64,000 bases of DNA, from positions 124,001 through 188,000 of the forward strand of contig RDXX01000008.1 of NCBI GenBank assembly GCA_004292955.1. Reading direction: 5' to 3'. This document shows positions 2,743-57,917 of the stretch, in pieces. The stretch's first letter is position 1; every line of letters starts with the position of its first letter. Origin of the DNA: Oscillatoriales cyanobacterium (GTDB lineage Bacteria; Cyanobacteriota; Cyanobacteriia; Cyanobacteriales; Microcoleaceae). A program made the position numbers and the translations under genes. The notes under the pieces are model-generated. The model searched no databases. It was not told the DNA's origin and was given only the letters and a program-made list of their open reading frames with translations.

Positions 2743-3822
2743 TTAATACATTCCTGTTGGAGGTTCGCGATCGGTCGGATATTTTAAGACTTCAGCCAGT
2801 TCTTGCAATTGAGTTGCTTGCACTAAACTCGAATGAGCAGCTTGAATATTTTTTTGCATGAACTGTTGCAATTCAGTGCCATTCATGCTGTCAGATTCGG
2901 GAGGATTGTAGGAAGAATAGCGATCGCGCAAATCTCCCTTGTTCTGCAACACCCTTGCTGCTGTGACTTCCACAGTCATGGTTCCCATGCCGATCGGCTT
3001 CCCGCCACCTACCTTGAGGGCGATCGCATATTTTGGATCTTGGCCCAGCACAATCAAAAGCGTTCCCAACTCTGCTGGCGTTAAATTTTTGAATTGTATC
3101 TGTGTTTTAAAAGTATACTCTTTAGCAGCTTGCTGAACAGTAATGCCTTGATTTTGACCTTTGTCGATCGCTCTAATTGTGTGATAATAAAACTTGCGTC
3201 CAGCTACATTACCTCTTTGGTCAAAATATGCTCTTCTTTGGTCAGGACGGGGACGATATAAAGATGGCATAAATCCAGTAGCAAAACCTGTTTTTTCGCA
3301 TTTAGCATCGCTGAATTCAATTAGCCCTTGCCAATCTAAAGCACCGAATACTTGACTTGCCGGACAGAGTTCTTGTTTATTTTTACAAGGCAGGCGATCG
3401 GACGGAATTTTATCTTTGTATCTTGATGTAATTACTGCTAAAGTGCTATTAGTAATGGCTTCGTATGCCGATCGGATGCAGCCTTTGAGAGAACTACCTT
3501 GAATTGATAGTTTTTGGTCAATATTTTGAACCATTGTTTTGATTAAAGGGACGCGGCTGCCTATGTCGCTACCCATGACAACTACGCCTGTAGAGACGTG
3601 CAAAGTAGTCTGAACTTTCAAAGTGATAAACAAAGTTCCGTGCAGGCGATCGACCAAATATTTGTGATGTCCGGCAGGAGCTTTTTTCGGCGGGCGTTCG
3701 TTGGGAAAACTAATTAATTCATAAGGTTTAGGCACTCCGATTTCACCAGCATAGTTATTAGAAACGGGGCGGCTTGGCGGCGGTGTAGAACCTCGGAGTT
3801 TAGGTACGGGATTATTAGTCAT
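2743..3822 (-). CDS. Cas7-like RAMP protein of type III-D-like complex (copy d)
   Basis: A 359-residue RAMP-superfamily protein. After about 60 low-complexity residues, the RRM-like fold begins at HGTLFITLKVQTTLHVSTG. It is followed by GSDIGSRVPLI, where the aspartate sits at the place of the target-RNA-cleaving Asp of Csm3/Cmr4, and by the hallmark IQGSSLKGCIRSAYE. A CPASQVFGALDWQGLIEFSD segment matches the second signature of Cas7-like proteins, and a glycine-rich loop (KVGGGKPIGMGTMTVEV) closes the fold. The start overlaps the stop of the csx19-like gene by 4 bases. It probably forms one position of the crRNA-binding backbone. Confidence 0.85.
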   Translation of the reverse strand: MTNNPVPKLRGSTPPPSRPVSNNYAGEIGVPKPYELISFPNERPPKKAPAGHHKYLVDRLHGTLFITLKVQTTLHVSTGVVVMGSDIGSRVPLIKTMVQNIDQKLSIQGSSLKGCIRSAYEAITNSTLAVITSRYKDKIPSDRLPCKNKQELCPASQVFGALDWQGLIEFSDAKCEKTGFATGFMPSLYRPRPDQRRAYFDQRGNVAGRKFYYHTIRAIDKGQNQGITVQQAAKEYTFKTQIQFKNLTPAELGTLLIVLGQDPKYAIALKVGGGKPIGMGTMTVEVTAARVLQNKGDLRDRYSSYNPPESDSMNGTELQQFMQKNIQAAHSSLVQATQLQELAEVLKYPTDREPPTGMY

Positions 3823-4295
3823 TTTTTACTCCTGACGGTGAGGGCGATAAAATGAACGGTGGCAGTTCTTTGGTCTTTAAAGTATCGCTGACCTATGGTA
3901 ATATTCTTAGAGTCAATTTTTTCGTCATTTTCTCCTTTATAGATAAAAGTTTTAGGAAATTTGGGTTCGTCAAGGCTGTGAAAGTAAGCAGCGCGATCGC
4001 AGCATTCCCAATTTTCGCCGATCGCCTCAAATCCCTCTAAATCGGCTGGAACCCTACTCAGGATTAACGCTTCATATGTACTTCCCTGCTTTTTCCAGCG
4101 CAATTCGCGATCGCTATTAAACATCTGCCCTTCAAAGCCGAGAGACAACTCATCGGGCAATTTCCTGCAAATGCCACTGACTGCGTGGGGCGATCGCACA
4201 AAATAGTAACTTTCCTCAGTTGCTAACTCTTCTAGCAACTTTTTGGCTTCATCCGGTGATAAACGCGATCGAACATATACAAAACCTGTATTCAT
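3819..4295 (-). CDS. csx19: Csx19-like CRISPR-associated protein
   Basis: A 158-residue protein between two Cas7-like genes, overlapping each by 4 bases. It begins VYVRSRLSPDEAKKLLEEL and continues as alternating strands, with LRWKKQGSTYEALILSRVP in the middle and a C-terminal FHSLDEPKFPKTFIYKGE. Size, position and the pattern of a gating region followed by a 'length-of-element plus trunk' region fit Csx19 (TIGR03984), a subunit seen in III-D complexes. The similarity is judged from memory of the family, so the name is moderate confidence. There is no catalytic motif; a structural role is expected. Confidence 0.55.
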   Translation of the reverse strand: MNTGFVYVRSRLSPDEAKKLLEELATEESYYFVRSPHAVSGICRKLPDELSLGFEGQMFNSDRELRWKKQGSTYEALILSRVPADLEGFEAIGENWECCDRAAYFHSLDEPKFPKTFIYKGENDEKIDSKNITIGQRYFKDQRTATVHFIALTVRSKK

Positions 4296-5251
4296 GCTAC
4301 AGCACCTGTTAAAAGCTTACTCCAAGCAGAAACTGCACATTTAAATAAATTGGGTACACCAGTCTCACCATCACCTTGCCATTTTAGCTGCACTCCAAAA
4401 CCTAAATCCATCGGTTCAGCAGCAATTGGAGTTTGTTCGCGATCGGGTTGAGAAAAGCCGTAATTTCCGGCTTCATCAACTTCTAAAAATTCTCCTGCAC
4501 CCAGCAAGAAAGCGTGTCCCCATTGACCAGGCTTTACTATTTGTTTAATTTGGCGATTATCTTCATCTAATACACAACCGGGATACTGAACTACGGCTTC
4601 GTTAAATTTTACTGTCACCGTCCCCAAACCGCGAGATTTAGCAAAACCGATGCCAAACCAGCCATCATTTAAGTCTCGCAAAACTAAGCCAATTAAGCCT
4701 AATTGTGCTAAGGAAAAGTTTTTCAGATGTATTTTAGTGCGAAATTCTCCAGCGGTGCAGACTTGATAGTTAAATGGGCCCACGGCTACGGAACCAAAAA
4801 CGCGATCGATCGCGACTCCATTTCGTTCTTGAATTTTAAGCTGTTTCTTATCAATTGGGTGAGCATCTTCTATTCTAAGTCTGCTAGCAATTGAAGTGTT
4901 GCCGAAAATGCGATCGGTAAATGAAGATAACTTGTAAATATCGCTGGATGATTTCTTCTGTAAGTAATCGTAATTGTCATTCAATGGATCGTTAGCCCAG
5001 AGAATGTCTGGATTATTAGGATTACTATCTGTTCCTATGGTTCTGACAATTCTCTCAGCATGAGCGCGAATAGCACCTTTTAAACTGCTTCCCGGTAGAT
5101 AAATTGACTTGCCTCCTGCGTGGTAAGTCTCGACAAATTCCATATCCGGTTTAGTCGGATCGGCTCCTTCTTTACCGGATTTTATCAGAATCGGCCCGTC
5201 AGGAATGAGAGTTAAGTCAATGGTACAGTGGTTGACAAATCGTTTGTGCAT
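4292..5251 (-). CDS. Cas7-like RAMP protein of type III-D-like complex (copy c)
   Basis: A 319-residue RAMP protein. It opens with an RRM-type strand (CTIDLTLIPDGPILIKSG), then a loop with GADPTKPDMEF that includes possible catalytic aspartates, then the hallmark YLPGSSLKGAIRAHAERIV. RIFGNTSIASRLRIEDAHP is the second Cas7 signature, and NGVAIDRVFGSVAVGPFNY is shared almost word for word with the neighbouring copy b (DGVAIDRDTETAADGKLYDF), which suggests duplication. A glycine-rich FAKSRGLGTVTVKF loop follows. It starts 101 bases after the copy b stop, with no strong Shine-Dalgarno sequence, and overlaps the csx19-like gene by 4 bases. Confidence 0.87.
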   Translation of the reverse strand: MHKRFVNHCTIDLTLIPDGPILIKSGKEGADPTKPDMEFVETYHAGGKSIYLPGSSLKGAIRAHAERIVRTIGTDSNPNNPDILWANDPLNDNYDYLQKKSSSDIYKLSSFTDRIFGNTSIASRLRIEDAHPIDKKQLKIQERNGVAIDRVFGSVAVGPFNYQVCTAGEFRTKIHLKNFSLAQLGLIGLVLRDLNDGWFGIGFAKSRGLGTVTVKFNEAVVQYPGCVLDEDNRQIKQIVKPGQWGHAFLLGAGEFLEVDEAGNYGFSQPDREQTPIAAEPMDLGFGVQLKWQGDGETGVPNLFKCAVSAWSKLLTGAVA

Positions 5252-39571: not shown

Positions 39572-42235
39572 ATGTCTTTCGTTGGTTTGCACATTCACAG
39601 CGATTACAGCCTGCTAGACGGGGCATCTCAGCTACAGCAGCTAGCTGAACGGGCGGTGGAATTGGGGATGCCCGCGATCGCCCTTACAGACCACGGCGTG
39701 ATGTATGGTGCGATCGAGCTAATCAAAGTTTGTCGAAATAAAAATATCAAGCCCATCATTGGCAATGAAATGTACGTCGTCAACGGCGACATCGAAGTCA
39801 AAGTTCGAGGTAGAAGAAAATACCATCAAGTTGTCTTAGCTAAAAATACGCAAGGTTATAAAAACTTAGTAAAACTTACCACAATTTCCCATTTAAAAGG
39901 AATGCCCGAAAGAGGTATTTTTGCCCGTCCTTGCATCAACAAAGAACTCCTCAAACAATACTCCGAAGGTCTCATTGTTACCAGCGCTTGTTTGGGTGGC
40001 GAAGTTCCCCAAATGATTCTGCAAAACAAGCTAGATACTGCCCGCGAAGTTGCCAAATGGTATAAAGAAGTATTTGGAGAAGACTATTATATAGAAATTC
40101 AAGACCACGGTTCCCAAGAAGACCGCATGGTTAATGTTGAAATCGTCAAAATTGCCCGCGAATTCAATATTAAAATAATTGCCACCAATGATTCTCACTA
40201 TATTTCCTGCAACGACGTAGAAGCTCACGATGCTTTGTTGTGCATCAACACCAACAAACTGATTGAAGAAGAAAAGCGGATGCGCTACAGCGGCACAGAA
40301 TATCTGAAGTCTGCTATGGAGATGGCGCAACTATTTCGAGACCATTTGGATGATGAAACGATCGAAGAGGCGATCGAAACCACCCTAGAAGTAGCAAACA
40401 AAGTATCAAGATACGATCTAACAGGAGAAGCTCGGATTCCCACAATCCCAATTCCCCCAGAACATACCGCCGATACCTATGTAGAAGAAATATCTTGGCT
40501 AGGATTATTAGAAAGACTCAAAGCCCGTACCAGAAATGAAATCCCCCCAGTCTACAAACAAAGACTAGAATATGAGCTAAAAATGATTCAGCAGATGGGT
40601 TTCTCTGAATATTTTTTAGTGGTTTGGGACTACATGAAATATGCTAGAGACAACAATATTCCCGTCGGGCCAGGACGTGGTTCTGCGGCAGGTTCTTTAG
40701 TTGCTTATGTCCTCAATATTACCAACATAGACCCGGTACACCACGGATTGCTATTCGAGAGATTTCTCAATCCCGAACGCAAATCGATGCCAGATATTGA
40801 TAGCGATTTCTGCATCGAAAGACGGGACGATATGATTAAATATGTTACAGACAAATATGGTACAGACCGCGTAGCGCAAATTATTACCTTCAACAGGATG
40901 ACATCAAAAGCTGTTTTGAAAGATGTTGCCAGAGTTTTAGGTATTCCCTACAAAAAAGCCGATGAGATGGCGAAAATGATTCCAGTATCGCGGGGGAAAC
41001 CGGAAAAACTCAAAGTAATGATTTCCGATGCAACACCGGCACAGGAATTTAAAACCAACTACGAAAATACTATTTGTACTAATGCCGAAACTGGCACCGA
41101 AGTCCCAGTGCGTCAGTGGATTGACATGGCAATTCGCATTGAAGGAACTAACAAAACCTATGGTGTTCATGCCGCCGGTGTGGTGATTTCTTCCATCCCC
41201 CTTGATGAAATTGTGCCCCTGCAAAAAAATGAAAATGGTGCTGTAATCACCCAATATTTTATGGAAGACTTGGAATTTTTGGGGTTACTCAAAATGGACT
41301 TTCTGGGACTCAAAAATTTAACGACTCTCCAAAAAACTGTTGATTATGTTAAGCAAACTCAAGATATAACTATCAATGCTGAAGGCTTACCTTCTGACAT
41401 AGAACGCAGAGCTCAAGAGACATTTACTAGGAACAACAAGTTACCCGGTGATGTAGCAAAGACTTATCAACTATTAGAAAAAGGAGATTTAGAAGGTATT
41501 TTTCAGCTAGAATCTTCTGGGATGCTGGATGTAGTAAAAAAAATCAAACCTTCTTGTCTGGATGATATTTCTTCTATTCTGGCGCTTTATCGTCCCGGCC
41601 CGCTGGATGCTGGTTTGATTCCACAATTTATCGATCGCAAACATGGTAGAGAAGTCGTTAAATACGACCATCCGCTGTTAGAACCGATTTTAAAAGAGAC
41701 TTATGGAACGCTTTGTTTCCAAGAGCAAATTATGCGGATGGCTCAAGATTTGGCGGGCTATTCTTTAGGTCAAGCTGACTTGCTGCGCCGCGCAATGGGC
41801 AAGAAGAAGGCTGATGAAATGCAGAAGCAAAAGGAAACATTTATTGATGGCGCAACTAAGAATGGTGTCGCTCAAAGAGTTGCCGAAGAGTTGTTCGGAC
41901 AGATGCTTCAATTCGCGGAATATTGTTTGAGCTATGACACGAAGATATTGACTATGGAATATGGGCCGATGGCTATTGGTAAAATTGTCGAGGAAGAAAT
42001 TGAATGTACCGTTTACAGTGTTGATAATAATGGCCATATTTATACACAGCCAATTGCACAGTGGCATCGCCGAGGTCAGCAGGAGGTCTTTGAGTATTGT
42101 CTGGAAGATGGCTCGATAATTCGCGCGACAAAAGATCACAATTTTATGACTTTTGACGGTCAAATGCTACCTATTGACGAAATCTTTGAAAAAGGATTAG
42201 ACTTAAAACAAATCAACTCTAGCTCACATCTATAA
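39572..42235 (+). CDS. dnaE: DNA polymerase III alpha subunit, N-terminal half with DnaE intein N-fragment
   Basis: 887 residues. The N-extein (1-784) has the PHP domain ([20 protein letters not shown]), the polymerase core with [16 protein letters not shown] and [20 protein letters not shown], and ends GQMLQFAEY. The intein N-fragment starts at Cys785 (codon 41924-41926), [20 protein letters not shown], and runs 103 residues to a stop at 42233-42235. It is very close to the fast-splicing DnaE-N fragments of Nostoc and relatives. Protein trans-splicing with the partner at 43009 restores DnaE. The start [13 protein letters not shown] is the family start. The endonuclease gene follows after 1 base. 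Confidence 0.97.
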
Positions 42236-42236
42236 A

Positions 42237-43016
42237 ATGTATATAGACTATAGGAAACTAAAATCAGAACACAAGGAACAAATCATTTTAGCTTTTAACC
42301 AAGGCATGGAGTGTCGAGAAATCCCTAACTACCTTGGGGTAAGCGAGAGAGCAGTTTCAAGAGTTTTAAAAGAAGCTGACATTAATACTAAGCGACGAAA
42401 CCGCTATACTTTAAATGAAAGCTATATTGATATAATTGACTCTCAAGCTAAAGCCTATTTGTTAGGATTGCTAGCTGCTGATGGCTGCGTTACTCAAACT
42501 AATTATGTAGCTTTTGAATCAATTGACAAAGAACTCACAGAAATGCTCAGCATAGAGCTACAATACTCTGGTGAAATTAGAATTGTTCAGCCTCAAAATT
42601 ATGCTCCTCACTACCGAATAAATTTTTCTTCTGAAAAACTGGCAAGCTCTTTACAGGGCTACGGCATCATAACAGGAAGGACTTTTTCAGAAGTTACCTA
42701 TTTTCCTAACTCCAAATATTTAGCGTCTTATGTGTTAGGGTACTTTGATGGTGACGGTTGTGCTTATGCAAACAAAGGTAGGAGTGGCGGTTTAGTCTGC
42801 ATTGTTAGTTCCTTTAAATTTGCCTGCGAACTAACAAGGCACTTAGGCATGGGTTCTGTACAAGAGCATCAATTTAAAAAAGTTTATTATTGGAGAATAT
42901 TTAGTCGGAAAAATATACAAGCATTCTATGATTTTGTGTATCAGTATCCCAGATTAGGTTTACAACGAAAAAAGACTAAAATTGAAGATATTCTCAGGAG
43001 TTACAAACATGGTTAA
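42237..43016 (+). CDS. LAGLIDADG homing endonuclease between the two dnaE halves
   Basis: 259 residues in a third reading frame. An N-terminal helix-turn-helix (residues about 13-46, IPNYLGVSERAVSRVLKEAD) precedes two LAGLIDADG helices, AYLLGLLAADGCV (75-84) and YVLGYFDGDGCA (166-175), each with its catalytic aspartate. It is therefore a monomeric two-motif enzyme that looks intact. The ATG lies 1 base after the stop of dnaE-N, and the stop overlaps the dnaE-C start by 8 bases, so translation is probably coupled. The sequence is more AT-rich than dnaE. It probably recognises the uninterrupted intein insertion site in dnaE. Confidence 0.9.
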   Translation: MYIDYRKLKSEHKEQIILAFNQGMECREIPNYLGVSERAVSRVLKEADINTKRRNRYTLNESYIDIIDSQAKAYLLGLLAADGCVTQTNYVAFESIDKELTEMLSIELQYSGEIRIVQPQNYAPHYRINFSSEKLASSLQGYGIITGRTFSEVTYFPNSKYLASYVLGYFDGDGCAYANKGRSGGLVCIVSSFKFACELTRHLGMGSVQEHQFKKVYYWRIFSRKNIQAFYDFVYQYPRLGLQRKKTKIEDILRSYKHG

Positions 43017-44727
43017 AATCATTAGTAGAAAATCACTAGGAACTCAAGAAGTATATGACATTGGCGTTGAAAGAGATCATAATTTTACACTAGAAAATAG
43101 TCTGGTGGCATCTAATTGCTTTAATAAATCCCATTCAATGGCCTATGCCTATATCACTTATCAAACTGCTTATTTAAAAGCAAATTTTCCTGTAGAATAC
43201 ATGGCTGCACTGCTGACTGCTAACAGAGGCGACCAGGAGAAGGTACAGAGATATATTGCTAATTGTATCAAGCTGAAGATTGATGTTGAACCACCTGATA
43301 TTAATGGTTCTGAACTTACTTTTACGCCATTGCCGATGGAGATGACAAAGGCGGAAAAACATAAAATTTTGTTTGGAATTTCGGCGGTTAAAAATGTTGG
43401 TGAGGGGGCTATTGAAAATATTTTGGAGGCGCGCAGGTCAGGGGGTGATTTTAATTCTTTACCAGATTTGTGCGATCGCGTAAATCTACATTCTGTCAAC
43501 CGCCGCGCCCTAGAAGCCTTGATTCACTGTGGTGCTTTTGACAAAATCGCACCCAACCGCCAGCAATTAGTAAACGACTTGGAAGGGGTTATGAAATGGG
43601 CGCAAGACCGCAAAAAAGACCGAGAAACTGGTCAAGGTAATCTCTTTGACTTGTTAGGAGATACTAGCTTTGGGAAGTCGGCGAATAAGTATGAATCTGC
43701 GCCAAAATCAAAAACTGTGAAAGATTTTGACACACAGGAAAAATTGCGTTTAGAAAAAGAATTGCTGGGTTTTTATGTATCAGATCATCCCCTCAAGTTT
43801 CTGCTTCAATCTAATCAAGATCCAGATGTTGTGACTCTCGCACAGTTAGCCGAGAAAAAGGGTAAAGTATCGGTTATTGTCATGCTCAACGCTATCAAAC
43901 TGGTAGTGACGAAAAAAGGCGATGCGATGGCAATTTTGCAATTAGAAGATTTGACACATCAAATCAAAGCTGTTGTGTTTCCGAAGGCTTACGAACAATT
44001 AAAACCGCATATTATAGAGAATGCTGTATTACTGATTAGCGGGAAAATTGAGAAGGATGGTGAGGAAATTCAGATAATTGTAGATACTGCAAAGCCTGTA
44101 GAAACACCAGAGGTTACAGAGGAAATCGAGATCCCACTACCGGAAACACAAAATTCTTGGGCGGCGCCATCGGAAATACAAAATTCTTGGGTGGCGCCAT
44201 CGGAAATACAAAATTCTTGGGTGGCGCCATCGGAAACGCAAAATTCTTGGGTGGCGCCATCGGAAATACAAAATTCTTGGGCGAATCAACCGGTCAACTT
44301 TGGACGATCGACTAAACCAGTGGAAGTTACAGAAATGGTGATTGTCAAGTTTACACCGCCGCAGGTGCAAGATGTCAAAAACCTCAATTCTCTGAAAGCT
44401 ATTTTGCAAGAACTTTCCAATCGTGGAGAGGATGCTAGCGTTTCGGTGGGGGGAATCGTTGTCGGTGAATATTGCTGTCAACCTCTTCGCATCAAGCGTC
44501 AATTGTGGGTACAAGATGGCGATGGCGCTGTTAGCCGTCTCAAGTCGGCGGGATTTGATGCTTCGGTTTTCCCTCTCGACAGTCGCGGGGATGCTGCAAT
44601 ATTTCGGGAAATGCGATCGCAACTTAAGATATATTCTTGGGCCAATCGCTTGCTTGACGCAGATGTCGATCGCATTTCCCAGTATCTCAGCTATCTCGCC
44701 CAACTAAACAAACGCCTGCCAAACTAA
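43009..44727 (+). CDS. dnaE: DNA polymerase III alpha subunit, C-terminal half with DnaE intein C-fragment
   Basis: 572 residues. The start MVKIISRKSLGTQEVYDIGV (ATG 43009) is fixed by AGGAG 8 bases upstream and by alignment with known 36-residue DnaE intein C-fragments. The fragment ends VASN, and Cys+1 (43117-43119) opens the C-extein CFNKSHSMAYAYITYQTAYL. The extein has the fingers/beta-binding region and the OB-fold region (VSVIVMLNAIKLVVTKKGDA). Between these and the end lies a decapeptide repeat, SEIQNSWVAP, about five times (44141-44281), not normally part of DnaE. Trans-splicing with the N-half gives the replicative polymerase. Confidence 0.96.
   Translation: MVKIISRKSLGTQEVYDIGVERDHNFTLENSLVASNCFNKSHSMAYAYITYQTAYLKANFPVEYMAALLTANRGDQEKVQRYIANCIKLKIDVEPPDINGSELTFTPLPMEMTKAEKHKILFGISAVKNVGEGAIENILEARRSGGDFNSLPDLCDRVNLHSVNRRALEALIHCGAFDKIAPNRQQLVNDLEGVMKWAQDRKKDRETGQGNLFDLLGDTSFGKSANKYESAPKSKTVKDFDTQEKLRLEKELLGFYVSDHPLKFLLQSNQDPDVVTLAQLAEKKGKVSVIVMLNAIKLVVTKKGDAMAILQLEDLTHQIKAVVFPKAYEQLKPHIIENAVLLISGKIEKDGEEIQIIVDTAKPVETPEVTEEIEIPLPETQNSWAAPSEIQNSWVAPSEIQNSWVAPSETQNSWVAPSEIQNSWANQPVNFGRSTKPVEVTEMVIVKFTPPQVQDVKNLNSLKAILQELSNRGEDASVSVGGIVVGEYCCQPLRIKRQLWVQDGDGAVSRLKSAGFDASVFPLDSRGDAAIFREMRSQLKIYSWANRLLDADVDRISQYLSYLAQLNKRLPN
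44141..44281. repeat. 30-bp tandem repeat inside dnaE-C
   Basis: Five units of CGGAAATACAAAATTCTTGG plus GTGGCGCCAT, nearly identical, the last incomplete. In frame, they add a WVAPSEIQNS decapeptide array in a linker between DnaE domains. Confidence 0.9.
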
Positions 44728-44958
44728 CATTTCGGCCCCATCCCCACCGGTGACTAAAGTTTGACCGTCAGGACTAAAAGCCACCGGATTGCGCCCAACT
44801 AGGCTGCACAAACATTCGCCTGTTTGCAAGTTCCAGACTTTAACAGTACCATCTCGACTGTCGCTAGCCATAGTTTCGCGATCGGGACTGATAGCCACCG
44901 AAATCACCGCGTCAGAATGGCCGCTCAAAGTCTTAATCAATTCCCCCGTCTGCAAGAC
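44704..44958 (-). pseudogene. WD40 repeat remnant
   Basis: The frame encodes about two WD40 blades: LQTGELIKTLSGHSDAVISV, AISPDRETMASDSRDGTVKV, WNLQTGECL, then a degenerate blade ending GAEMLVWQAFV. There is no own start at the repeat edge. The 3' end overlaps dnaE-C by 24 bases, and the 5' end lies inside the last codons of the DUF3593 gene. It looks like a leftover of a WD40 gene that landed at this junction. Confidence 0.55.
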
Positions 44959-45274
44959 ACTCTTGCTTTTCGCCCTCATTCTGTGAGGATGCTTTGGCTT
45001 TAATCACCGCTTCCCGAAAGCCTAAAACTACTAAAATATTGGCAAGTGTCAAGAATAGTTCCGCAGAACCGTGGAGCCAATCGACATTTGCTAGCGACTC
45101 ATTGTAGGCAACTTTTGCATAAATTGCTGCGGGAATAGTCACACCCACAAACACGAGAGTGCCGTAAAATCCCATCAGAGCTAAACGAGGAGTTTTTCCA
45201 GATTTCGTCAAAAACCAGAGAAAACCCAAGTAGGGAAATAGAGACAGCACAAATAAACTTTCTTTGGAAATCAT
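44933..45274 (-). CDS. DUF3593 membrane protein
   Basis: 113 residues with three hydrophobic segments (LFVLSLFPYLGFLWFLTKSG, LALMGFYGTLVFVGVTIPAA, LFLTLANILVVLGFREAVIK) and the family motif NESLANVDWLHGSAELFLTL. DUF3593 is restricted to cyanobacteria and plastids, function unknown. The last about 15 residues (GEKQECLADGGID) are encoded by sequence that also carries the WD40 remnant, so the natural C-terminus may have been replaced. Confidence 0.88.
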   Translation of the reverse strand: MISKESLFVLSLFPYLGFLWFLTKSGKTPRLALMGFYGTLVFVGVTIPAAIYAKVAYNESLANVDWLHGSAELFLTLANILVVLGFREAVIKAKASSQNEGEKQECLADGGID

Positions 45275-45561: not shown

Positions 45562-46212
45562 TTACCCAGCAATCCGAAACTGAGACATTTCCAAAGTTGT
45601 CGGTCTGCTAGGTATCAAGCAAGTATCGCTCAAAACCTCTAAATCAGCAAAGCGTTTTCTATCTGTTGCGATAATTTCTTCGAGCTTAGCATCAAAATCA
45701 AAACGCGGTCCACAATCCCAAAGTTTGAATTGCCAGTGTCCGTTACATACCGTAATTTGCAGTTGAATAGGAGTTTCTGCGGGCAGATTTTTGTGAGCGT
45801 GACGAACTGCATTAGTAAAACCTTCAGCTAAAGCTAGCTGTAATTGGAACCAAACCTCATTGGGGATCGATACATCTTGCAACTGCTCCAACCAGTCCAA
45901 AACTTTAGTTAAAGCATTCATATCTGTGTTGACTTGCAGGCTGATGTTTTTCAAAGAACTTTCATTCAGTTCTGCTTCCTGCTCAATGTCATCTTGCCAA
46001 TCCCACTTCTTTAACAAATTCATTAACCCATCTAAAACGCTAGCCTTTTTTATATTTTGCGATCGCGAGCGACTTTCTACTTCGTAACTTTTGCTCAGCG
46101 ACAAACAATTTCGACCGTCAAGAGTCCGGGTGTAACTCAGCTCGTCTGCAATCTGCCACATGAGTTTGATGCCTCTGCCGCCTTCTGCCAGTTGATCTAT
46201 GCTGTTCGACAT
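45562..46212 (-). CDS. Anti-sigma-factor-like ATPase with permuted parts
   Basis: 216 residues from ATG 46212 (GAGGA precedes it). Residues 5-40 (LAEGGRGIKLMWQIADELSY, then TRTLDGRNCLSLSK) look like the C-terminal G-boxes of an RsbW/SpoIIAB-type HATPase. Residues 95-195 (LQVNTDMNALTKVLDWLEQL, LQLALAEGFTNAVRHAHKNL, FKLWDCGPRFDF) look like the N-terminal half of the same fold, with the N-box Glu and Asn. Normally the order is reversed. The end (TDRKRFADLEVL onward) lacks a second GGRG box. Either a circular permutation or the junction of two tandem genes; a functional kinase is uncertain. Confidence 0.7.
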   Translation of the reverse strand: MSNSIDQLAEGGRGIKLMWQIADELSYTRTLDGRNCLSLSKSYEVESRSRSQNIKKASVLDGLMNLLKKWDWQDDIEQEAELNESSLKNISLQVNTDMNALTKVLDWLEQLQDVSIPNEVWFQLQLALAEGFTNAVRHAHKNLPAETPIQLQITVCNGHWQFKLWDCGPRFDFDAKLEEIIATDRKRFADLEVLSDTCLIPSRPTTLEMSQFRIAG

Positions 46213-47071
46213 TGATTTTCCTCGTCTGAAAGTATTAGTTGTACCCATTTTTCACACCCCCCGACACACCTTGTCGTTTTTTATACTTGCTTATTCAGTA
46301 TAATTTCGGCGTTCATACCAAAATGCTATCTTTTTTGTAGAAGGCATCGCATCAGCAATATGTCTTAAGAGTCTAAGCCAATTGGCTTATTTACCGATCG
46401 CCTGTACGGAGAGGGATCGCCCCCGTAGCACAATCCGCCTGCATCCACCAGAAATTACCGAATCACTGCCGGAGCTCATTTACCCCAGCCGTCGCCAGCT
46501 ACAAAATACAAGGCATTGAGCCACTGCCAACGGTGGCTCGCCGGTAGCCTGCAAAGCCGATTTGAGGTAATCGCTCTCATCCTAAAGGAGTAAGTAATAT
46601 CCGCAAAGGCGATCGTCCGCCAACCTCACACCGGCGTGCCACGTCAATCGATTTTAGATTTTAGATTTTAGATTTTAGATTTTAGATTTTAGAGGCGACC
46701 CTACGGATAAATTCGGGGGAAGAGAGGATTTTCGATTTTCGATTTGGGATTGATTCCACGGATAAATCACGTGGCGGGTACCACAGGTCGAAATTCGCTT
46801 GGTTTCTGCTAAAAATATTGGATTTGACAGCGAAAAATCTAGCAATAAACCCTGTTTTTAGCCCCGCGCGCGTTATTCCAGGAGAAAACTAGGCGATAAA
46901 ACGCAGTTAGATGAATTACCCGGACTAAGCTTTGCTTGCATCTACATAGTCTGTTATGTTCGAGGAGATTCCGGCAGAGGGGAGAGATCCAGGGAGAAAG
47001 TCTGATGAGGAGATGATTTGACAACTAGGTAATAGGTAATTGACATATACAATTTAAACGCGCAACACCTG
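46213..47071. other. Long intergenic region, unexplained
   Basis: About 860 bases between divergent genes. It holds AAAGGAG and several GC-rich inverted segments between 46400 and 46640 (for example CGGTGGCTCGCCGGTAGCC), which look structured and less AT-rich than neighbouring spacers. From 46650 to 46692 there are six units of the heptad ATTTTAG. No open frame of more than about 60 codons is convincing. An RNA gene or a decayed gene is possible; no known RNA family was recognised. Confidence 0.4.
46650..46692. repeat. Heptad repeat ATTTTAG
   Basis: Six consecutive units of GATTTTA. Shorter arrays of the same heptad or its complement (AAAATCT) occur at 39541-39557, 51547-51565 and 56684-56700. 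Confidence 0.8.
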
Positions 47072-57560: not shown

Positions 57561-57917
57561 TCAAGCATCCTTGACGTTTTTTACCGCCTCATCAACCGAA
57601 GGCTGCAAAGACAAAAATTTCTCTAAGCGAACCAGTTTAACAGTCTGAGTTACGCGGGGATTTGAGACAATTTGCAATGTCCCTTCCATGGTTTGGGCTT
57701 TCTTGACAAGTTGCACAAGTGCGCCCAAGCCTGAACTATCCACAAAATCTATCTGAGACAAGTCCAAAATTACGTGTTTTGGGCCCTCGTCAATACATTT
57801 GCTTAGTACCTTCCGAAAAGTGGCCTCAGAAAAAGCGTCCAGCAGGCCAGTCAAGCGAAATAACTGATGGTTATTCTTGACTTCGCGAGTGCCTCTGAGG
57901 CTAACGGTCAGGGTCAA
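57561..57917 (-). CDS. STAS-domain anti-sigma factor antagonist
   Basis: 118 residues when started at TTG 57917. The STAS core is clear: NHQLFRLTGLLDAFSEATFR, KHVILDLSQIDFVDSSGLGA (with the phosphorylatable Ser in DSSGLG), LVQLVKKAQTMEGTLQIVSN. It would bind and release an anti-sigma ATPase. The start is uncertain: a perfect AGGAGG (57935-57940) sits 5 bases before an in-frame ATT (57927-57929), while the TTG is 17 bases away. An ATT start would add PESL and agree better with relatives. Confidence 0.9.
   Translation of the reverse strand: MTLTVSLRGTREVKNNHQLFRLTGLLDAFSEATFRKVLSKCIDEGPKHVILDLSQIDFVDSSGLGALVQLVKKAQTMEGTLQIVSNPRVTQTVKLVRLEKFLSLQPSVDEAVKNVKDA

Follow-up and report, generated by a model that had tools for sequence, protein, structure and literature searches.

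A putative RsbW/SpoIIAB-type anti-sigma kinase with a circularly permuted Bergerat fold in an Oscillatoriales cyanobacterium

The window, a stretch of 64,000 nucleotides from an Oscillatoriales cyanobacterium, carries on its minus strand a gene (45562..46212; ATG at 46212, stop at 45562) for a protein of 216 residues. We consider the gene, with a probability of about 0.8, to encode a naturally circularly permuted Bergerat-fold (HATPase_c_2) anti-sigma regulator of the serine-kinase type. In RsbW/SpoIIAB-type kinases, the G2 box normally lies towards the C-terminus. In the 216-residue protein, GGRGIKLM occupies residues 11–18 and the strands YTRT...RNCL come next; ALAEGFTNAVRHAH, which contains the N-box, occupies residues 127–140, and the G1 box DCG residues 166–168. 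The original prediction had placed GGRGIKLM and the final strand at the N-terminus and the N-box in the C-terminal half, as these minus-strand positions confirm. It had also suggested a circular permutation, which is borne out by the swapped profile matches, the predicted structure, and the conservation of the order over many separate assemblies. The family order is β1, N-box, G1, lid, G2, β4, β5. The permuted proteins depart from it by rotation, and we therefore file them as a permuted variant of the RsbW/SpoIIAB-type kinases and not as ordinary members. An alternative, longer in-frame start is found at 46248. Orthologues align from the ATG at 46212, which is preferred because it is alignable across them. 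The gene and its parts are as follows.

45562..46212, minus strand: whole gene, 216 aa, putative circularly permuted HATPase_c_2 protein (RsbW/SpoIIAB-type)
46081..46185, minus strand: relocated C-terminal block, residues 10–44, with the G2 box, helix 13–21, and strands 24–29 and 35–42; about 113–160 of the normal-order profile; median dN/dS 0.206
46171..46182, minus strand: G2 box GGRG, residues 11–14, from sequence and motif count
45955..46080, minus strand: linker, residues 45–86, mostly of low pLDDT, with one predicted helix (58–69); dN/dS 0.470
45673..45954, minus strand: residues 87–180, with strand 1, two helices, the N-box, strands 2 and 3, and the G1 box; about 6–120 of the profile; dN/dS 0.350
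45793..45825, minus strand: N-box EGFTNAVRHAH, residues 130–140, from sequence and motif count
45709..45717, minus strand: G1 box DCG, residues 166–168, from sequence and motif count
45565..45672, minus strand: residues 181–216, end of the lid helix and disordered tail with a conserved C-terminal IAG; dN/dS 1.018

By the roles of the corresponding residues in SpoIIAB and RsbW, E130 is presumably the catalytic base and N134 presumably the Mg ligand. The end of the otherwise unconstrained tail reads IAG (45565–45573, minus strand) in 23 of 26 orthologues and AG in 25 of 26, and is perhaps a C-terminal recognition signal. Promoter and terminator scans of the gene are uninformative (3 and 2 sites, with 2.5 and 1.3 expected).

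The swapped order is seen most directly with a normal-order profile of 162 positions made from 40 cyanobacterial homologues. All 38 permuted loci match this profile twice, with positions ~113–160 in the N-terminal part followed by ~6–120, so that the two matches jointly cover nearly the whole domain and place the break between G1 and G2, inside the ATP lid. In an orthologue 94% identical to the window protein (L061), the N-terminal block matches profile positions 115–159 (i-Evalue 1.5e-13) and the C-terminal part positions 6–118 (1.2e-42). A wider set of loci, sorted by profile order, comprises 55 distinct permuted sequences, 109 distinct normal ones, one fusion, and one row without its end. 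When the PDB is compared with a profile of the permuted proteins, Bacillus subtilis RsbW (6m36) is matched in swapped order (whole-sequence E 1.5e-10): query residues 123–179 correspond to RsbW 38–93 (i-Evalue 3.9e-7), and query residues 3–25 to RsbW 101–123 with an i-Evalue of 7.1, which is weak alone. The original prediction had allowed that the N-terminal block might come from a different domain. The block matches the same domain profile in every one of the 38 loci, and a foreign N-terminal domain is ruled out by the swapped double matches, the RsbW match, and conservation.

Pfam HATPase_c_2 (PF13581) is recognized in the 216-residue protein in two stretches (E 3.9e-18; 66.1 bits, gathering cut-off 27.4). 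The protein scores far below the NCBIfam RsbW equivalog cut-offs (31.3 vs 145 for NF003144 and 28.5 vs 155.05 for TIGR01924), and two normal-order homologues of the same genome, scanned alike, also fall far under them. Domain tools that assume the normal order see mainly one part of a permuted protein; here the best stretch is 97–175 with Pfam and 124–187 with NCBIfam.

AlphaFold2 was run on 39 permuted sequences, and the packing of the moved block was judged from pLDDT, pTM, and the order of the elements. The model of the window protein has a pTM of 0.66 and ten-residue pLDDT means of 84–93 (residues 11–40) and 85–95 (residues 91–180), with pLDDT below 50 at residues 1–10, 47–62, 64–83, and 194–216. 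Structure prediction had been proposed as a check of the permutation, and it yields a helix-strand-strand unit, a disordered linker, and then the rest of the fold. The N-terminal part is predicted to contain helix 13–21, strands 24–29 and 35–42, and helix 58–69, and the C-terminal part strand 88–95, helices 100–113 and 118–139, strands 148–156 and 159–166, and helix 173–196. With the element order of SpoIIAB as reference, the predicted order is the SpoIIAB order rotated. The top structural match of the model is SpoIIAB (1tid_A; Z 9.5, rmsd 2.2, 95 aligned). The alignment is confined to the core, model residues 85–181 on chain residues 1–97, as is to be expected of an aligner that keeps the order and can match one part only. 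The Rv1364c RsbU/RsbW entry, RsbW, and usfX are further matches. A Foldseek search of the PDB returns nothing at E 0.001 or better, with SpoIIAB on top at E 0.013. Structural matches to proteins that are neither anti-sigma kinases nor GHKL relatives of these (among them aminotransferases and L11) were taken as common sheet arrangements and set aside.

In the preferred reading, the chain would start inside the former ATP lid, and the G2 helix and the final two strands would come next. A linker some 45 residues long would then lead to strand 1, two helices with the N-box, strands 2 and 3 with the G1 box, and the remaining half of the lid. The permuted protein would fold as one domain with ATP in the usual site and the lid open as two free ends, and would bind and phosphorylate STAS-domain partners encoded elsewhere as part of a partner-switching network. 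We infer ATP binding, kinase activity, and partners by analogy with the known kinases. Since the lid is cut into two free ends, faster nucleotide exchange or an altered grip on the partner is expected.

The gene is widespread in its genus. It is found in 27 of 29 genus genomes, with matches that run from residue 1–3 to residue 206–216 at 57–100% identity and have no inner stop, and the carriers include two single-contig genomes (G027 and G028). No match of this gene type is found in G002 (92% complete) and G005 (74% complete). The named relatives within the genus are mostly Microcoleus. Neighbour clusters are common to 17–20 of 25 loci; clusters read by eye include dnaE parts (20 loci) and a pentapeptide-repeat gene, a small membrane-protein gene, and a hydrolase-like gene (19 loci each). 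Another permuted gene of the same genome (C147) is 48% identical over residues 2–182, and by our own reading of the search a paralogue of this second type is present in 18 of the 29 genus genomes. Outside the genus, four genomes of the same family (G155, G273, G274, and G269) and four of two other families of the order (G347, G335, G305, and G473) encode permuted proteins. Together with the 27 genus genomes, and with up to seven candidates scored per genome, at least 35 of 388 genomes of the order have a permuted protein, and one more has a fusion (G353). Homologues with the same order, which the original prediction had proposed to look for, are thus plentiful. A phylum-wide search with the window protein alone gives full-span permuted matches in 6 of 244 genomes, namely G155 and five genus members.

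Genes of the second type have neighbours of their own. By clustering, a response-regulator gene follows in 11 of 15 loci, and genes for an ECF sigma factor and a zinc-finger anti-sigma-like protein lie upstream in 10. At one such locus (L095, 1773–7060), Pfam confirms Response_reg, Sigma70_r2/r4, and zf-HC2. At another (L148 of G028, 3084–4603), there is a tandem of two permuted genes of the second type, of which the first is shorter by one residue around the N-box and the second carries H in place of the N-box N.

The dnaE gene close to the window gene (39572–44727, plus strand) has a split intein, both halves of which are still adjacent. The open reading frame with the intein N-part ends at 42235, and the frame with the intein C-part and extein starts at 42982, inside the end of the frame that fills the gap. 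This gap frame (42237–43016) is a free LAGLIDADG_3 frame (E 4.8e-11), and the scores of the intein halves with Pfam Intein_splicing stay under the cut-off. The arrangement seems to be intermediate between a contiguous intein carrying an endonuclease and a split intein. Near its end, the DnaE C-part (42982–44727) has about five tandem copies of the short repeat IQNSWVAPSE and variants. A 91-residue frame with WD40 repeats (44704–44979, minus strand; E 1.5e-16) is perhaps a fragment of a larger WD40 gene.

Conservation extends to the motifs. Among the 55 distinct permuted sequences, the N-box E and the N-box N are each kept in 54, the D and G of the G1 box in 55 each, the second G of the G2 box in 54, and its last G in 55, so that six of the eight counted positions are kept in 54–55 sequences. 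The first G of the G2 box is kept in 44 and its R in 31. The N-box exceptions are one orthologue with A for the catalytic E (L018) and the second L148 gene with its H. Selection was estimated from all 27 genes of this type except L032, as medians of pairwise dN/dS, with 271 to 324 of 325 pairs per region after removal of pairs with too few or saturated silent changes. The medians are 0.206 for residues 10–44, 0.350 for residues 87–180, 0.470 for the linker, and 1.018 for the tail; residues 1–9 give 0.173 from few sites. The moved block is therefore the most constrained sizeable part of the protein, more so than the core. Conserved motifs and purifying selection together indicate that the gene looks functional.

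Two genes joined in assembly or gene calling, or a collapsed tandem pair, could give such an order, and the original prediction had itself pointed to a misassembly. The same order recurs in 27 of 29 genus genomes, two of them in single contigs, and in named records from many projects, with neighbours in common. Flanks of up to 1.5 kb hold no remnant of the missing outer halves except a true second permuted gene, the tandem partner in L148; the other flank matches are the genes' own first residues, which were included in the query region, and one match at E 0.28. An artefact is thus extremely improbable, and conservation over many separate assemblies rules out an assembly error. Decay towards a pseudogene is very unlikely as well. 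It would account for a tail dN/dS near 1 and for the two genus genomes in which this gene type finds no match, but block and core are under purifying selection, the 27 full-length matches have no inner stop, and 18 of 29 genomes retain a second permuted paralogue.

The main rival to the kinase reading retains the fold and gives up the chemistry: the permuted protein would bind STAS partners or a sigma factor as a phosphorylation-independent sponge, its kinase activity lost. According to PMC10120452, the lid is a flexible loop and, in the model of a related pair, is probably in contact with the STAS partner. In the permuted protein it is cut, with both free ends (residues 1–10 and 194–216) of low confidence; one natural orthologue, L018, is an E130A variant. 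Against these points stand the catalytic E and N, each kept in 54 of 55 sequences, the invariant G1 D, G1 G, and last G of G2, and the stronger constraint on the G2-bearing block than on the core. We regard a purely binding protein as possible but clearly less probable than a functional kinase, for which the conserved residues and purifying selection argue. Less likely still is that the N-terminal block acts in trans, docked on another subunit or HATPase protein by domain swapping or complementation. The RsbW/SpoIIAB family is dimeric, and the flexible linker, with 36 residues of pLDDT below 50 between residues 47 and 83, would allow it; the single-chain prediction nevertheless gives both block and core high pLDDT at a pTM of 0.66. 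A single-chain permuted kinase is the reading we prefer.

The genome of the permuted gene offers potential partners, with 10 STAS matches over the cut-off and 10 SpoIIE-type matches, 9 of them over the cut-off. No STAS or PP2C gene is found beside the permuted gene; the closest matches lie at distances of 11.4 kb (STAS) and 51 kb (SpoIIE-type). Likewise, none is seen by eye among the clusters common to at least a quarter of 25 loci. Such a neighbour's absence is no argument against function, because a working cyanobacterial cascade, as described in PMC12329169, is also unlinked. The nearest STAS match (57585–57884, minus strand) scores 71.9 bits (cut-off 22.6) and lies in an open frame of 125 residues.

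How the rotated order arose is suggested by a single fusion sequence, the only one in the set (L090 from Oscillatoria sp. SIO1A7, the same gene as L225 from G353). In this protein, a block at the N-terminus (PEGGRGLKIM...) and a linker precede a complete normal domain with its own block at the end (SGRGLIFM...); it is thus an intermediate with the moved block at both ends, in which the first outer half is missing and the second is kept. The nearest relatives of its N-half are permuted proteins (60% to L036). For its N-terminal block, permuted blocks give the highest score, narrowly over those of one type of normal-order paralogue, the D-type (133 vs 126); its C-terminal block scores best with normal genes of another, the E-type (63%), with which it is grouped in a tree (support 96/93). 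The C-terminal block of L090 is also the more confidently predicted of the two, with ten-residue pLDDT means of 91–96 over residues 201–228, compared with 70–84 over residues 11–40 for the N-terminal block. The original prediction derived the permutation from a tandem duplication followed by loss of the outer halves. The one-sided intermediate speaks for such a history, but the two G2 blocks of L090 are of unlike paralogue types, and a fusion of unlike genes is therefore at least as good an explanation as a fresh tandem duplication. One gene may still simply have been duplicated in tandem. Adjacent normal-order pairs do exist (L155 to L159), but both members look D-like by their blocks and not E-like, and they are therefore not established as parents.

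Further hints come from the linker and from trees of the two halves. Compared by eye, the linker of the permuted proteins looks like the leader at the N-terminus of E-type genes with normal order. Trees were made from hand-picked subsets of 79, 55 (block), and 58 rows from 166 distinct rows; the 58-row tree also took later-found rows, with seven loci left out. In the N-half trees, the permuted proteins side with E and are separated from most D rows (97/97 with 79 rows; 97/82 with 58 rows); in the 58-row tree one D row (L132) lies outside the set of remaining D rows. In the block tree, the starred E set does not include the permuted blocks (96/93), and an AU test does not reject a grouping of permuted and E blocks (p 0.34). 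With this p value, and with an unrooted arrangement D, permuted, E that fits both trees, we discarded the conflict between the half trees as proof of chimaerism. By similarity of the block, the best group is D in 28 of 32 A-like and in 12 of 23 other permuted rows. By similarity of the N-half, it is other normal genes in 22, E in 8, and D in 2 of the A-like rows, and other normal genes in 16 and E in 7 of the other rows.

The blocks of L090, the likeness of the linker, and the N-half trees point to a route that starts from one tail and a whole second gene. The tail of one RsbW-type gene would have been fused to a complete second gene, giving an L090-like state, and the second gene's own tail would then have been lost, leaving the permuted order; judged from sequence comparison, this is the likely route. 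The permuted form takes four changes on the tree, and a single origin is neither established nor rejected (AU p 0.098; p 0.184 with L090 and Hormoscilla added). In one N-half tree (79 rows), L090 falls within the permuted group, so that re-gain of the tail is possible, and L090 may not be ancestral. Hormoscilla and a genus-mate have a normal-order gene that falls near the permuted group and is preceded by a faint block-like stretch, for which the matches are weak (E 0.043 out of frame in one genome and E 18 in frame in the other; 55083 segments). Tentatively, a D-like tail may have been fused to a complete E-like gene, with the second tail then lost in Microcoleus and others and the first lost in Hormoscilla and its genus-mate, which retain a faint remnant; the cut lid might leave the nucleotide site permanently accessible and make for a different switch. 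This detailed version is doubtful.

The ATP lid is a moving part of this kinase family. Here it is cut, and the motifs have been kept while the arrangement spread to several genera, so that nature offers a test of why the lid would have to be continuous. The permutation concerns a single-domain protein and comes with a one-sided intermediate, and it adds unlinked candidate kinases to the poorly understood anti-sigma networks of cyanobacteria. By titles and abstract openings, in a scope outside which preprints and most subscription journals lie, we find among the papers listed no report of a permuted Bergerat, HATPase, GHKL, RsbW, or anti-sigma protein.

The permuted protein shares with RsbW and SpoIIAB the membership in HATPase_c_2 and the N-box, G1, and G2 motifs, and SpoIIAB and other anti-sigma kinases are its top structural matches. 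RsbW and SpoIIAB have the normal order, whereas in the permuted protein G2-β4-β5 come first and the new ends lie in the ATP lid. L090 has in common with the permuted proteins the extra N-terminal G2 block, the linker, and the N-half, and differs from them in its complete normal-order domain with its own C-terminal G2 block. Two homologues in the same genome have the normal order. The D-type gene (L004, G000:C93), 40% identical over residues 70–180 and 68% over residues 1–44, has a STAS gene and a gene for a response-regulator/SpoIIE phosphatase nearby; the E-type gene (L003, G000:C62) follows a gene with STAS and sugar-transferase domains. In Synechocystis, according to PMC12329169, Slr1861 is an anti-SigC factor and a kinase of Ssr1600, a STAS protein with its gene elsewhere in the genome, and PmgA is cited there as a second kinase of Ssr1600. 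Slr1861 and PmgA are counted here with the normal-order kinases, and the permuted gene likewise has no STAS gene beside it.
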